Source of the DNA: Bacteroidales bacterium
GTDB taxonomy: Bacteria; Bacteroidota; Bacteroidia; Bacteroidales; UBA932
Reading direction: 5' to 3'
Length of the DNA stretch: 47,201 bases
Assembly: GCA_017617655.1 (NCBI GenBank)
Contig: JAFZVU010000047.1
Location: 1 to 47,201, forward strand
Position 1 is the stretch's first letter, and each line of letters begins with the position of its first letter. Under the pieces are notes generated by a model. The model made no database searches. It was not told where the DNA came from and was given only the letters and a program-made list of their open reading frames with translations. The position numbers were made by a program, and so were the translations under genes. Positions 34,115 through 39,895 of this stretch are shown here, piece by piece.

Positions 34115-37100
34115 TTACTTTATCTGAGGCAGACCCAGGTCCTTGAAGGTACGCGGTGCGGGAACCTTCGGGAGCGGTTTGCGGTCCTTGATCTGCTCGA
34201 GAGCTACCTCGACGGCCTTGATGAGCTGCTCGTCCTCGCCGGCCCATTCCTTTATAGGGTCGTTCTCGAGAACGATGTCAGGATCCACGCCGTGGTTCTC
34301 CACTATCCACTGGCCGGTGGCGGCGTCGTAGTTGGTGAAGAAAGGAACTCGGACGTCGGTGCCGTCGATGTACGGCAGAGAGCCGCTGATGCCGATGATG
34401 CCTCCCCAGGTGCGGGTTCCGATCACGGTACCCATGTTGTTGGCCTTGAAGCTCCACGGGAAGAGGTCGCCGTCAGATGCGCTGTACTTGTTGATAAGCA
34501 TCACCTTCGGACCTGTGTGGGTGCCCTCGGGCACTGTGCCTATCATGTCGCTGCCGCGCTGCATGGTCAGACGGTATGCCTCCCTCTGGAGACGCTCGAT
34601 GAGCATCGGAGAGACGTTTCCGCCGCCGTTGCCGCGGTCATCGATAATGAGGGCTTCCTTGTCGAGCTGGGGATAGTAGTAGCGTGCGAACTCCTTGAGG
34701 CCTTCGGCGCTCATGTCGGGCACGTAGATGTAGCCCACCTTGCCGCCTGAGAGCTTCTCGACAGTGCGGATATTGTTCTGTACCCACTCGTAGTGAACCA
34801 GCGGATATTCGTCAGCTATCGGCCTGACTACCACCTTCTTGCCACCTTCCTTGGCGACGGTGTTGACGGTGAGTTCGGTCAGCACGCCGGCCTTGCCCAC
34901 GAGCATAGAATAGATGTTCTTCACATCCTTTGTAGAGACTCCGTCGATGGCAGTGATGAACTGGCCTTCAGACACTCCGATGCCGGGTTCGGTGAGCGGA
35001 GAGCGCAGGCTTGCCTGGTAGGGAGCGCCCTGCATTATGCGGTCGATGCGGAAGAATCCTGAGGCGTCCTTGCTGAGCTCGGCGCCGAGCAGACCCATGT
35101 CAACCTTGTCGGCCATGGGATATTCGCCGGGAGTGATGTATGCGTGGCCGCAGGCCAGCTCTGAAATCATCTCGCCGATGACATAGTTAAGGTCGAGGCG
35201 GGTCTTTACGTAAGGCAGCAGCACTGAGTATTTCTCCTTCAGTGCGTTCCAGTCGCGGCCGTGCATGTTGGTCAGATAGAAGCCGTCGCGGAAGGCGCGC
35301 CAAACCTCGTCGAAGATCTGCGGCCACTCCTGTGAGTAGTCGATGTCAACCACTATGTCGGCTGTCGAAACGGGCTCGCCGGCCATCTTCTCGCGCAGGT
35401 CGGCCAGAGAAACGGTGCCGCGCTCCATGATTATGGCTTTCTTGTCGCCGTAGCGGTATGCGAAACGGCCCTTGCCGCAGTCCTCGGTAGTACCCTTCGC
35501 GAAGTCGAAGACCTTGATGCCGTCGCGGCCGTTGAACCATATCTTCTTGCCGTCGCAGTAGTAGCCCATGGCGCCTTGTACGGGAATCTTGAGGTTACGT
35601 GAGGTCAGGCCGTCGGGATCGACTACTACCTTCACTGCGTTGTCGGCCTTGTCACCCTTGTCGGCAGCGCCGGGAGCGCCGGGACCGGCGGGCTTGTCAG
35701 CTGCGCCGACGCCGTCGGTGGGCAGCATGGGAGACGGGGTGTCCTTGGCGAGGATGCACATGAAGAGAGCCCTCATGTCGGTCATGGCGAAGTCCCACTC
35801 GATGTTGCTGTAGGTGGGATTCATCTCGGTGGCCGAGGTGTAGAGCAAGAATTTGCCGTCGGCGCTGAATTCAGGCATTCCTGAATCGTACCAGCCGTCG
35901 GTGACTGCATATTCCTTCTTTGTGTCAAGATTGTATACGTAGACGATGCCGTACTGGTTGGCGGCCGGTTTCGAATAGGTCAGCCACTTGCCGTCCGGAG
36001 AGTAAGACACGTCGCGGAACTCAGCGGCGGGATTCTCCATGATGACATTTTTCTTACCGTCGAGGCTCACCTCTACGATGCGGTTCTTTCGGTCGGTGTA
36101 GAGGATATGCTTGCTGTCCGGAGCCCACTGGAGGGAGCGGATGTAGGTGTCGTTCTTCTTTGTGAGCTGCTTTGCATCGCCGCCGGCAGCCACGTCATAG
36201 AGGTACACTTCAGTCTCGCCTGTAGCGTCGCCGACCCATGCGATATACTTGCCGTCCGGACTCCAGTCGACGCTGCGGTCGTTGGAGTTGGCGCTGCGGG
36301 AGATGTTGCGGGTCACGCCTTTGGCTGCAGGGATGTCGAACACCTCGCCGCGGGCGATGGCAGCCACGCGGGTGCCGTCAGGAGACACAGCCATGGAGCT
36401 GGGAGACACCTTGGTACGGCGCTCCGTGCGGGCGTAGATATTGTCGGAAGCCAGGCTGACAGTCACCTTGGTGGCCTTCTTTGTGGCCGGGTCGAGACGG
36501 TAGATGAAGCCGCCGTTCTCGAATACGATGCTCTTGCCGTCGGTGGTCGGGAACTTCACGTCGAAACCGGTGAAGTCAGTGACCTTGGTGGTGGTGCCGG
36601 TCTTCGTATTGTAGCAGAATATGTTCATAGTCATGTCGCGGTCCGAAGCGAAATAAATCTCGTCGCCGACCCACATCGGGAAGATGTCCTGTGCGGGGTT
36701 GTCGGTGATGGCCTTGACAGACTTGCCGTCGTAGATCCAGATCTCGTCGGCCATGCCGCCGCGGTAGTATTTCCAGGTGCGGAACTCGCGCATCACACGG
36801 TTGTAAGCCAGCTGCTTGCCGTCGGGAGAGTAGCTGCAGAAGCCGCCCTGGGGCAGGGGTATCTGGACCGGCATAGAGCCGTCCGGAGACACTTTCCAGA
36901 GGTTGCCCTCGAAGCCGTCGCCGATGCGGTTGCGGTAGACTATATATTTGCCGTCAGGAGTCCAGCCCATGACCATGTTGTTGGGGCCCATTCGGTCGCC
37001 CATGTCGTCGCGGGGATTGGTGGAAGTATAGGTCACGCGCCTGGGCTCGCCGCCTGTGGCTGGGATCACATAGACTTCCCTGTTGCCGTCGTATTCGGCT

Positions 37101-37336
37101 GTGAAAGCGATGGTCTTGCCGTCCGGAGAATAGTGGGCGAAAGCCTCATATCCGATGTGGGAAGTGAGTCTTGTGGCCTCGCCGCCCGTTACGGGCACGG
37201 TGTAGAGGTCGCCGGCATAGGTGAAAACGATGGAGTTCCCGTTGGTTGCGGGGAAGCGGAGCAGCCTTGCCTCTTCGGCTTTAGCCGAAAGGGCGGCCAC
37301 GAGCGTCAGGATGACGATGGTAAATATCTTTTTCAT
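34115..37336 (-). CDS. Tricorn-type S41 peptidase with beta-propeller
   Basis: Very large secreted protease of 1073 residues with a signal peptide (MKKIFTIVILTLVAALSAKA). Residues 25 to about 540 are TolB/PD40-type propeller repeats (HYSPDGKTIAFTAEYDGNRE, MVMGWTPDGKYIVY and others). A linker near 545-570 is rich in Gly, Ala, Pro and Asp. The C-terminal half has a PDZ-like part and the S41 core: DRGNGGGNVSPMLIERL, and KYSASDGDLFPWSFK with the likely nucleophilic Ser, then GTRTWGGIIGISG. This is the architecture of tricorn homologues that cut peptides. The three domains run in the usual order. Promoter box weak (TATCTTTA). Confidence 0.9.
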   Translation of the reverse strand: MKKIFTIVILTLVAALSAKAEEARLLRFPATNGNSIVFTYAGDLYTVPVTGGEATRLTSHIGYEAFAHYSPDGKTIAFTAEYDGNREVYVIPATGGEPRRVTYTSTNPRDDMGDRMGPNNMVMGWTPDGKYIVYRNRIGDGFEGNLWKVSPDGSMPVQIPLPQGGFCSYSPDGKQLAYNRVMREFRTWKYYRGGMADEIWIYDGKSVKAITDNPAQDIFPMWVGDEIYFASDRDMTMNIFCYNTKTGTTTKVTDFTGFDVKFPTTDGKSIVFENGGFIYRLDPATKKATKVTVSLASDNIYARTERRTKVSPSSMAVSPDGTRVAAIARGEVFDIPAAKGVTRNISRSANSNDRSVDWSPDGKYIAWVGDATGETEVYLYDVAAGGDAKQLTKKNDTYIRSLQWAPDSKHILYTDRKNRIVEVSLDGKKNVIMENPAAEFRDVSYSPDGKWLTYSKPAANQYGIVYVYNLDTKKEYAVTDGWYDSGMPEFSADGKFLLYTSATEMNPTYSNIEWDFAMTDMRALFMCILAKDTPSPMLPTDGVGAADKPAGPGAPGAADKGDKADNAVKVVVDPDGLTSRNLKIPVQGAMGYYCDGKKIWFNGRDGIKVFDFAKGTTEDCGKGRFAYRYGDKKAIIMERGTVSLADLREKMAGEPVSTADIVVDIDYSQEWPQIFDEVWRAFRDGFYLTNMHGRDWNALKEKYSVLLPYVKTRLDLNYVIGEMISELACGHAYITPGEYPMADKVDMGLLGAELSKDASGFFRIDRIMQGAPYQASLRSPLTEPGIGVSEGQFITAIDGVSTKDVKNIYSMLVGKAGVLTELTVNTVAKEGGKKVVVRPIADEYPLVHYEWVQNNIRTVEKLSGGKVGYIYVPDMSAEGLKEFARYYYPQLDKEALIIDDRGNGGGNVSPMLIERLQREAYRLTMQRGSDMIGTVPEGTHTGPKVMLINKYSASDGDLFPWSFKANNMGTVIGTRTWGGIIGISGSLPYIDGTDVRVPFFTNYDAATGQWIVENHGVDPDIVLENDPIKEWAGEDEQLIKAVEVALEQIKDRKPLPKVPAPRTFKDLGLPQIK

Positions 37337-37365: not shown

Positions 37366-37398
37366 TTTGTAAAGATACAGAGTTTTATCATACCTTTG
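37366..37398 (+). promoter_or_regulatory. Bacteroidetes promoter for the cys leader-cysK-cysE unit
   Basis: TTTG at 37366-37369 and TACCTTTG at 37391-37398, 21 bp apart: a full -7 match with a consensus -33. With the usual spacing the RNA starts near 37405, 2 nt before the leader ATG at 37407. Confidence 0.65.
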
Positions 37399-37406
37399 CA
37401 CCCAGA

Positions 37407-37481
37407 ATGAAGCAGATCATGTCAAATATGTGTTGCTGTTGTGCTATCCGCAAGGTTGGCAGGCGATGTCGTGCATATTGA
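37407..37481 (+). CDS. Cysteine-rich leader peptide of cysK
   Basis: A 24-codon ORF with Met at residues 1, 5 and 8, then four Cys codons in a row (TGT TGC TGT TGT, 37431-37442), and a fifth Cys at residue 21 in the basic tail (KVGRRCRAY). It ends at TGA 37479-37481, 108 bp before cysK. Any of the three ATGs (37407, 37419, 37428) could be used; the last gives a 17-residue peptide beginning MCCCC. Position between a strong promoter and a terminator, ahead of two cysteine-synthesis genes, marks it as a candidate attenuator peptide. The peptide itself need not have a function. Not homologous to anything I can name. Confidence 0.68.
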
Positions 37482-37493
37482 TACTATCCGCAA
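37444..37493 (+). repeat. 10-bp direct repeat in the cys leader
   Basis: CTATCCGCAA occurs at 37444-37453, just after the Cys codons, and again at 37484-37493, just after the leader stop. It may be part of alternative RNA structures, but I found no complementary partner in the leader. Confidence 0.5.
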
Positions 37494-37512
37494 AACACTA
37501 TATATATTTCGC

Positions 37513-37553
37513 AACCTGTCAATCAATCCGATTTCGACAGGTTTTTTATTTTT
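37513..37553 (+). terminator. Rho-independent terminator (attenuator) before cysK
   Basis: AACCTGTC (37513-37520) pairs with GACAGGTT (37536-37543), 8 bp, and the loop holds a further AATC/GATT pairing. A T-rich run follows (37542-37553). It lies 32 nt after the leader stop and 36 nt before the cysK ATG, inside the transcript, so it can act as an attenuator. Confidence 0.75.
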
Positions 37554-37588
37554 CATTCATAGACAAATCATTTTTAAATTCGCATACC

Positions 37589-38527
37589 ATGATTTACAAC
37601 AAACTCACCGACCTTATCGGTAACACCCCCCTCCTTGAAATCTCAGGCTTCGAAGGTCAGAAAGCCCGCATCATCGTCAAACTCGAATACTTCAACCCGG
37701 GCGGAAGCGTAAAGGACCGCATCGCCCTCGCAATGATTGAAGATGCTGAAGCCAAAGGGCTTCTCAAACCCGGAGCTACCATCATAGAGCCCACCAGCGG
37801 CAACACCGGCGTCGGCCTCGCATGGGTAGGAGCCGCCAAAGGCTACAAGACCATCCTCACCATGCCCGACACCATGAGCCTCGAGCGCCGCAGCCTGCTG
37901 AAGGCCCTCGGAGCCAAACTCGAGCTCACCCCGGGCGCAGAAGGCATGAAGGGCGCCATCGCCAAAGCCGAGCAGCTCAACAAGGACATCCCAGGCAGCA
38001 TAATCCTCGGCCAGTTCGTCAACCCCGCCAACCCGCTCATCCATGAGAAGACCACCGGAGAAGAAATCTGGAGAGATACCGAAGGCAAGGTGGACATCTT
38101 CGTGGCCGGAGTAGGCACCGGCGGCACCGTCACCGGTGTGGCCAAGGCCCTCAAGAAGCACAACCCTGCCGTCAAGGCTTACGCAGTGGAGCCCGCCAGC
38201 TCGCCCGTGCTTTCTACAGGTGTTCCCGGCAAGCACAAGATCCAGGGCATAGGCGCCGGCTTCGTTCCCAAGACCTATGATGCAAGCGCCATCGACAAGG
38301 TCATCACAGTGGCCGACGACGACGCCATCTCGGCATCCCGCCAGCTCGCGGCAAAAGAAGGCCTGCTGGTCGGCATCTCTTCAGGAGCGTCATTCTCTGC
38401 CGCCCTGGCCCTGTCAAGAGACGAGGCCAACGCCGGCAAGACTATTGTCGCCCTGCTGCCCGACACCGGCGAGAGATATCTCTCAACCGTTCTCTACGCA
38501 TTTGAAGAATACCCCATAAAGGGATAA
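37589..38527 (+). CDS. cysK: Cysteine synthase (O-acetylserine sulfhydrylase)
   Basis: PLP enzyme that makes cysteine from O-acetylserine and sulfide. The 312-residue product starts [18 protein letters not shown]. Lys42 in [12 protein letters not shown] is the PLP lysine; [12 protein letters not shown] and [15 protein letters not shown] bind substrate and phosphate; [14 protein letters not shown] is the C-terminal region. I chose ATG 37589 because upstream in-frame codons lie in the leader. It follows the Cys leader and terminator and precedes cysE by 7 bp. Confidence 0.96.
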
Positions 38528-38534
38528 ATATTAT

Positions 38535-39353
38535 ATGGACGAAATACTCAAAGACATTACCGCTGCGATGGAGGCCGTCTCTGCTCAGGAGGAGAAGATG
38601 GCCCTCCGCACCGGCGGTCCCCTGCCCTCTCCGAAAGCTCTGGAAGACATAATGGAGCTGGTGAAGGCAGTTATTTTTCCCCGTTATTACGGAGGAGCCG
38701 CAGGCATAGCCAAAGACATAGCCAACCTCTACGGACTGCTGATGCCGCAGACAGGCAGCGCAATCGCCGAAGCCTTTATCAAGAAGCTTCCCGAGATAAA
38801 GAGCCTGCTTCTTACCGACATCGAAGCCGTGGCCCACAACGACCCGGCCGTGAGCAGCTTCAGCGAAGTGGTGTTCTGCTACCCTGCCATCCAGGTCATG
38901 CTGCACTACCGCACCGCCCACGCCCTGCTGGAACTCGGCACCCCGGTGATCCCGCGCATCCTCACCGAGCTTGCCCACTCCGCCACGGGCATCGACATCC
39001 ATCCTGCCGCCAAGATCGGGGCATACTTCGGCATCGACCACGGCACCGGAGTGGTGATAGGCGAAACCTGCGTCATCGGAGACCACGTAATGCTATATCA
39101 GGGAGTGACCCTCGGCGCCCGCAACTTCAAGTATGACGACAAGGGCAACCCGCTGCAGGTTCCAAGGCACCCCATCCTCGAGGACAACGTCACAGTCTAC
39201 TCCAACACCTCTATCCTGGGCCGCGTGACCATCGGCCACGACTCGATAATCGGAGGTAACATCTGGCTGACCCACGACGTGCCGCCCGGCACAAGGCTGC
39301 TGCAGAGCAAGGCCGTCACAGTGCCTGAATTCAGCGACGGAGGAGGCATCTGA
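38535..39353 (+). CDS. cysE: Serine O-acetyltransferase
   Basis: Makes O-acetylserine from serine and acetyl-CoA, the step before CysK. The 272-residue product has an N-terminal helical domain and then left-handed beta-helix hexapeptide repeats: HSATGIDIHPAAKIG, FGIDHGTGVVIGETCVIGDH, YQGVTLGA, and VYSNTSILGRVTIGHDSIIG. The catalytic His lies in the DHGTG motif. It starts 7 bp after cysK; the two genes form the classic cysteine-synthase pair. Regulation by the upstream attenuator is proposed for both. Confidence 0.94.
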   Translation: MDEILKDITAAMEAVSAQEEKMALRTGGPLPSPKALEDIMELVKAVIFPRYYGGAAGIAKDIANLYGLLMPQTGSAIAEAFIKKLPEIKSLLLTDIEAVAHNDPAVSSFSEVVFCYPAIQVMLHYRTAHALLELGTPVIPRILTELAHSATGIDIHPAAKIGAYFGIDHGTGVVIGETCVIGDHVMLYQGVTLGARNFKYDDKGNPLQVPRHPILEDNVTVYSNTSILGRVTIGHDSIIGGNIWLTHDVPPGTRLLQSKAVTVPEFSDGGGI

Positions 39354-39397: not shown

Positions 39398-39895
39398 ATG
39401 ACTATCACTTGTCCAAAATGCGGAAAATCCGTTTCCAGCGACTATCAGTTCTGCCCCTACTGCGGCGGCAGCCTTGCAGGAGGCGGTAGCTTCAATACCG
39501 GGAACAACGGCGGCTTCGGCGGCCAGACCAACAGTGGCAACACAGGATTCCCTCCCCAGCCGGATTTCGACCGGAACGGCAACGCCCGCACCCAGCAGCA
39601 ACAGCAGCAGGGTCAGCAGGGCAGCTGGCCTTTCCCCAACCTCAACCCGGGCGGCAACAGCGGCACAGGCGGCAGCATCCTGCGCAACAACGCCGGCTGC
39701 CTGGCCATCATCGGCTCGTTCATCATCCCGCTGATCGGCGTGGTCCTGTATTTCGTATATCGCCGCAAAAACAACATGCAGGCTGCCAAGAAAGTTCTCT
39801 ATGCAGCCATCGCCGGCGTAGCCTTCAACCTCCTCATCAATTTCGTAGGCCACGGCTCGCAGTACAGCTATTTCCATAACCTTATGGGTTATTGA
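39398..39895 (+). CDS. Zinc-ribbon membrane protein
   Basis: Product of 165 residues. The N-terminus has a zinc ribbon (CPKCGKSVSSDYQFCPYCGG; Cys at 5, 8, 19, 22). A low-complexity stretch rich in Gly, Asn and Gln (about 27-95) links it to one or two membrane segments (CLAIIGSFIIPLIGVVLYFVY, and VLYAAIAGVAFNLLINF near 126-142). Such zinc-ribbon plus membrane proteins are common in Bacteroidetes and have no known role. Followed by a strong bidirectional terminator. Confidence 0.8.
   Translation: MTITCPKCGKSVSSDYQFCPYCGGSLAGGGSFNTGNNGGFGGQTNSGNTGFPPQPDFDRNGNARTQQQQQQGQQGSWPFPNLNPGGNSGTGGSILRNNAGCLAIIGSFIIPLIGVVLYFVYRRKNNMQAAKKVLYAAIAGVAFNLLINFVGHGSQYSYFHNLMGY

Follow-up and report, generated by a model that had tools for sequence, protein, structure and literature searches.

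The cysK-cysE genes of the window (the whole 47,201-nucleotide stretch analysed here, contig JAFZVU010000047.1 of a Bacteroidales bacterium) are preceded by an element that, judged by comparison with related sequences, is very probably a trp-type, ribosome-mediated transcription attenuator sensing charged tRNA-Cys, and that occurs in one clade of Bacteroidales cysK genes. It combines a run of regulatory codons for the operon's own amino acid (four Cys codons before cysK-cysE), an intrinsic terminator between the leader ORF and the first structural gene, an evolutionarily kept antiterminator that competes for the 5′ arm of that terminator, and an antiterminator strand placed just outside the position of a ribosome stalled on the Cys codons. 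Transcription would start about 5 nt 5′ of the leader ATG, at a predicted 37401-37404, and a terminated transcript would be roughly 140 nt long. With Cys-tRNA plentiful, the ribosome would pass the Cys codons and cover strand 2, or strand 2 would fold with strand 1; strand 3 would then pair with strand 4 and transcription would stop 5′ of cysK. With Cys-tRNA scarce, the ribosome would halt at the Cys run, covering strand 1 and leaving strand 2 free for strand 3, and this pairing would keep the terminator from forming, so that cysK-cysE would be transcribed. Attenuation of the trp/his type had been proposed in a first-pass annotation of this DNA, and the comparison of relatives, through their Cys runs, covarying antiterminator and common geometry, supports it.

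A promoter of the Bacteroidota −33/−7 type was read from the sequence at 37366..37398 (+) as TTTG (37366-37369) and TACCTTTG (37391-37398), where the annotation had placed one. The leader ORF (37407..37481, +) carries the regulatory codons TGT TGC TGT TGT at 37431..37442 (+) and a fifth Cys codon at 37467-37469, in agreement with the four consecutive Cys codons and later fifth one first described, and corresponding leaders were found in L002-L008, L058, L064, L066, L072, L079 and L099. Its frame is open further 5′, to GTG 37221, and the start at 37407 was assigned from the position of the promoter. It overlaps a 5′ extension of the cysK frame (GTG 37430), and the alignment of relatives begins at ATG 37589. 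A TAnnTTTG box lies 8 nt before the leader ATG in the window; in 10 of the 17 leaders scanned a TAnnTTTG-like box ends 6-9 nt 5′ of the ATG. It lies farther away, at 14-38 nt, in L062, L063, L066 and L072, and the scan found no such box in L058, L079 or L120. Promoter elements at −7/−33 are given for Bacteroides thetaiotaomicron in section 8 of PMC7366714; if the −7 box is centred at −7 as stated there, the 5′ UTR in the window would be about 5 nt, making the ORF almost leaderless. In the sections of the same paper considered here, about 3.7% of B. thetaiotaomicron 5′ UTRs are shorter than 10 nt and short ORFs reminiscent of leader peptides are mentioned. In L058 (1249-1330) the leader ATG stands one base 3′ of the CCA end of a tRNA-His gene, and tRNA processing may therefore leave an almost leaderless mRNA there.

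The cysK gene (cysteine synthase A, 37589..38527, +) matched TIGR01139 at 440.5 bits (cut-off 350.95), and this genome, 84% complete, gave no other CysK match at E ≤ 0.001. Seven nucleotides 3′ of it lies a cysE-like serine O-acetyltransferase gene (38535..39353, +), the product of which had its best match to TIGR01172, below the cut-off (156 versus 210.65). Of the 17 leader loci, 13 have a cysE match 3′ of cysK in the same orientation; none was seen in L008 (where the contig ends), L066, L099 or L120. Directly 3′ of the cysE-like gene is a gene for a zinc-ribbon protein (39398-39895, +). The upstream neighbour (34115-37336), which matches tricorn-protease families, is on the opposite strand, and the terminator is therefore not the end of a + strand upstream gene.

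For comparison, cysK upstream regions were collected from relatives and the family, from the best 80 named GTDB loci and from an order-wide sample. Scanning covered 89 + 79 + 52 regions, without L121, which lacks upstream DNA, or the pattern-only loci L031-L034, and these were reduced to 213 distinct regions of at most 360 bases each. ORFs with an ATG start and up to 60 codons were scored for consecutive Cys codons. Runs of at least three were present in 15 of the 213 regions, of at least four in 10 and of at least five in two, against 0.18 and 0.0 regions with runs of at least three and four, respectively, in dinucleotide shuffles; the reverse strand of the 213 regions gave none of either length. 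For other amino acids, runs of four occurred in two regions for Leu and in none for the remaining 18, and runs of three in 11 for Leu and in at most five for the rest. The independent cases are fewer than 15, because the leader sequences are related; about nine peptide groups were distinguished by eye. Four tandem TGY triplets (TGYx4) are by themselves not rare, occurring at 38 sites in the genome versus 18 for the reversed pattern. These sites form 36 loci, of which three besides the window (L152, L251 and L252) carry a short ATG ORF through the run; they were rejected as further leaders, each ORF overlapping long open frames. The exact string ATG-TGYx4-GC was found three times in 393 Bacteroidales genomes, in the window and at two other sites, one within a long frame of the opposite strand and the other adjacent to where such a frame ends; these two, with no cysK seen alongside, were judged to be chance matches.

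The intrinsic terminator (37513..37554, +) was located where a Rho-independent terminator had been annotated before cysK; its stem spans 37513-37543, a U-rich tract runs on to 37554, and the folding energy is −11.6 kcal/mol. It was absent from a simple hairpin scan because of the loop rule of that scan (3-8). A stem with a U-rich tail is present in the other 16 leader loci too, although in L007, L062 and L079 the automatic pick took a different or longer hairpin. Directly 3′ of the Cys run lies strand 1 (37443..37449, +) of a 1:2 protector or pause hairpin, paired by eye across the loop GCAA (37450-37453, +), followed by strand 2, GGTTGGCAGG (37454..37463, +), the 5′ strand of the antiterminator. 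Strand 3, CCTGTCAATC (37515..37524, +), is common to the antiterminator, with strand 2, and the terminator, with strand 4. The main antiterminator is therefore the 10-bp helix of GGTTGGCAGG with CCTGTCAATC; the 6-bp pairing AGGTTG/CAACCT, given earlier as the only antiterminator pairing found and as a weak point of the proposal, does exist, but as a weaker register of this helix, and the 10-bp helix removes that weak point. The duplex of strands 2 and 3 in the window has an energy of −14.6 kcal/mol, and none of 500 shuffles was as good.

Pairing between strand 2 and the terminator 5′ arm is found in all 17 leaders (−12.8 to −19.2 kcal/mol). In 10 of them no shuffle of 500 was as good, and in the other seven 3-30 were (L066, 3; L099, 6; L062, 11; L072, 13; L007, 22; L079, 23; L064, 30), so that the antiterminators of L007, L064, L072 and L079 were only modestly better than shuffles. 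The distance from the Cys run to the first paired base of strand 2 ranges across the 17 leaders from 11 nt in the window to 17 nt in L062 (with the reference Cys codon of L063 set by hand), which, for a ribosome footprint of the usual size, would place strand 2 just outside a ribosome stalled on the run. Covariation was scored in 11 loci on a strand alignment made by hand, with the terminator arms and strand columns also chosen by hand. Changes on both sides were seen in eight of the 10 antiterminator columns, and 99 of 107 cells were paired; one column was mostly unpaired (3/9). In 10 Bacteroidales loci, native combinations of strands 2 and 3 gave −15.05 kcal/mol versus −10.76 kcal/mol for swapped ones, a difference reached by one of 20000 permutations, by four without L079 and by 28 without both L079 and L066. 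A set of 13 loci, including three near relatives and L120, gave −15.20 versus −9.98 kcal/mol and none of 20000 permutations.

The protector hairpin, in which strand 2 folds back on the end of the Cys run, was less uniform. The window segment from the Cys run to past strand 2 folded at −13.1 kcal/mol, with 16 of 200 shuffles as good. Among the 13 loci tested, the hairpin was strong in L099, L066, L062, L007 and L058, moderate in L001, L005 and L079 (11-16 of 200 shuffles as good) and not above shuffles in five (L004, L064, L072, L063 and L120). When a stalled ribosome was simulated by masking the Cys run, equilibrium folding still favoured the terminator in 15 of the 17 leaders, including the window, and preferred the antiterminator in L058 and L120; in L120 the upstream pairing was preferred even in the free RNA. 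Folding of truncated RNA gave the antiterminator in all 17 leaders, which is weak evidence, because strand 4 is absent from that RNA. The E. coli trpL leader was treated in the same way as a control: 14 nt separate its last Trp codon from strand 2, and it formed the antiterminator in truncated RNA and the terminator at equilibrium even with the Trp codons masked; since it behaves like the window in this test, equilibrium folding does not discriminate between the hypotheses. The two leaders are alike in layout: each has an ORF with regulatory codons, strands 1-4, and strand 2 just past the stall codons. The window differs from trpL in using Cys instead of Trp, in its ORF, which is probably almost leaderless, and in belonging to a different phylum.

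What is kept among the leaders bears directly on the alternatives. The annotation had pointed to relatives as the place to look for a poly-Cys ORF, and to a Cys run that changes freely as a sign against it; relatives do have the ORF, and in them the run is retained where the peptide otherwise differs. Fifteen leaders have a run of 3-5 Cys codons, one codon shorter in L005, L006 and L008 than in L004, and since the TGT/TGC spelling varies between loci it is the amino acid that is kept rather than a DNA string. Between groups little else is common, as in MNTGNAHICCCCTGLHDWYGATYA (L099), MRHLTNNTCCCCADSADWYGQPCVL (L058) and MKTSGTKSFNVCCCCIILNGWCGSCVA (L007). Strand 2, which is GGTTGGCAGG in the window and GATTGGTACG or a close variant in most others, occurs in all three reading frames across the leaders and spans or lies past the stop codon in L066 and L062, and is therefore conserved as RNA. 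These patterns make it improbable that the ORF encodes a functional small protein, for example a metal- or thiol-binding one, next to a terminator acting as a separate constitutive brake. The five Cys of the window leader and a tail kept in close relatives (GRRCRAY/GRLCRAY) would suit such a protein, whereas the peptides range from 15 to 39 aa and retain little but the Cys run between groups; the one further shared motif, DWYG in L058, L064 and L099, is encoded by strand 2, which persists whatever the frame and covaries with its partner. That the ORF lies by chance beside an ordinary terminator is hardly credible: the abundance of TGYx4 in the genome lends this idea something, but it is already contradicted by the excess of runs of at least four in the 213 regions over their shuffles and by the covarying pairing, and no other TGYx4 site of the genome has the leader layout.

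Riboswitches and T-boxes commonly use a terminator/antiterminator layout as well, and that part of the region would also fit a known RNA element, such as a T-box or a riboswitch that binds cysteine directly, with the Cys run incidental. We regard this as very unlikely, the Cys run being a constant feature and no Rfam family having matched at gathering score in the window or the leaders of 11 relatives; three weak matches were far below the cut-off, and the Rfam matches obtained in relatives, to a tRNA in L007 and L058 and to a glycine riboswitch in L120, were not at the leader. Leader stalling could instead act mainly on translation of cysK, and a leaderless poly-Cys ORF is indeed the mycobacterial layout according to the review PMC9031893. 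Regulation of that type would work through translation rather than through an intrinsic terminator; the window has such a terminator between the leader and cysK, and the 5′ arm of this terminator is the pairing partner of strand 2, so that by this analysis a mainly translational action has only a small chance of being correct. Stalling may add an effect on cysK translation beside that of the terminator.

Attenuators of this kind have precedents. Leaderless poly-Cys short ORFs of mycobacteria were reportedly the subject of work by Canestrari et al. in 2020, and a 2004 survey by Vitreschak and colleagues is said to have predicted some amino-acid attenuators in Bacteroidetes. Bacteroid-trp (RF01692) is a Trp-codon attenuator; like the window element it is a cis-regulatory RNA of Bacteroidetes, unlike it it concerns trp and not Cys, and it had no Rfam match in the window or the leaders of relatives. 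Since the table of PMC2864571 marks this Bacteroidetes RNA as cis-reg, the earlier remark that attenuation of this type is not known to be described for Bacteroidota does not wholly hold for amino-acid control by RNA. In mycobacteria, according to the portions of PMC9031893 and PMC13236596 used here, leaderless poly-Cys ORFs make downstream genes cysteine-responsive and are described as acting on translation. The window resembles them in its contiguous Cys codons within an ORF that, from its probable start, would be near-leaderless, and differs in its intrinsic terminator, its covarying antiterminator and its unrelated phylum. The uORFC-8-2 motif before cysS in Rhodobacterales is presented in excerpts of PMC8632094 as a predicted Cys-codon uORF with an intrinsic terminator; in contrast to the window it has two tandem Cys codons, precedes cysS and not cysK-cysE, and belongs to Alphaproteobacteria. 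Leader peptides known by 2010 appear in passages of PMC2965389 and uORF candidates in passages of PMC6429828. Cys attenuators have been described outside Bacteroidota, and a trp RNA within it, so the kind of system is known; what is new here is the phylum and the operon, cysK-cysE of Bacteroidota, for which no earlier Cys leader or attenuator was found among the literature matches listed, a set drawn mostly from papers outside subscription.

Of 26 genomes in the window's genus, eight carry the leader, nine matched with a cysK of another type and lack it, and nine gave no match at E ≤ 1e-120. Named records with the leader are L057 (on the same contig as L004; water buffalo omasum), L058 (reindeer), L064 (Ca. 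Cryptobacteroides onthequi), L099 (water buffalo rumen), L066 (labelled Paludibacteraceae), L072 (labelled Muribaculaceae), L079 (labelled Prevotellaceae) and L120 (labelled Phascolarctobacterium, Bacillota); L062, with two Cys, and L063, in which the Cys are scattered, have weaker versions. A tree of CysK with 62 rows placed 14 leader loci, along with these two, in one supported clade (99/86) of 27 rows, 11 of which have no leader, and L120 outside it on a long branch. A census of the order found CysK at E ≤ 1e-110 in 81 of 393 Bacteroidales genomes, giving 89 upstream regions, and the leader in one of them, the window; its occurrence across Bacteroidales is therefore patchy rather than general. 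A second ORF from the census (MRSCCCKV), about 480 nt away, was judged chance-like and set aside. L120 has, upstream of cysK (start about 1062), the poly-Cys ORF MYRTSDKMSNMCCCRMLNSRTYQYGQVHSSTLCCACTCF, whose ATG follows a purine-rich stretch resembling an SD sequence, together with a terminator and pairing; this leader is perhaps an independent case. In L067 (cysK start 1501), the nearest tree relative of L099, a terminator-like stem is kept and the Cys leader is absent, a possible natural loss.

Many other Bacteroidales carry a different sequence before cysK. An 18-bp palindrome, ATACC-N8-GNTAT, precedes cysK in 49 of the 213 regions (1.18 in single-base shuffles) at a distance of about 59-172 nt, in L012, L023, L036-L047, L049, L051-L053, L055, L056, L159, L160 and others, and is absent from all 17 leader loci. 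It is a candidate operator of a cysteine regulator. A LuxR-family (GerE) gene adjoins cysK in the three palindrome loci examined (L036, 2553-3191; L041, 2609-3250; L159, 726-1376; all +). At E ≤ 1e-15 the L041 protein found matches in eight of 60 relatives; the window's genus gave none in 26 genomes, 18 of which are without the leader, a comparison that ignores kinship. The absence of the palindrome from leader loci and of LuxR matches from the genus suggests that the attenuator replaced a protein regulator, and we put at slightly below an even chance the reading that, in one Bacteroidales clade, control of cysK passed from a protein switch to an RNA switch. If true, near-leaderless poly-Cys leaders would have separate origins in Bacteroidota and in Mycobacteria, and a poly-Cys leader may have had a further one in Bacillota (L120).

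For uncultured Bacteroidales of the rumen and gut, the leader provides a testable cysteine-control element and predicts how these bacteria would respond to cysteine. The same solution, a Cys run in a near-leaderless ORF, would then be in use in unrelated phyla, and other Bacteroidales may, to judge by their palindrome loci, have a LuxR-type cysteine regulator.
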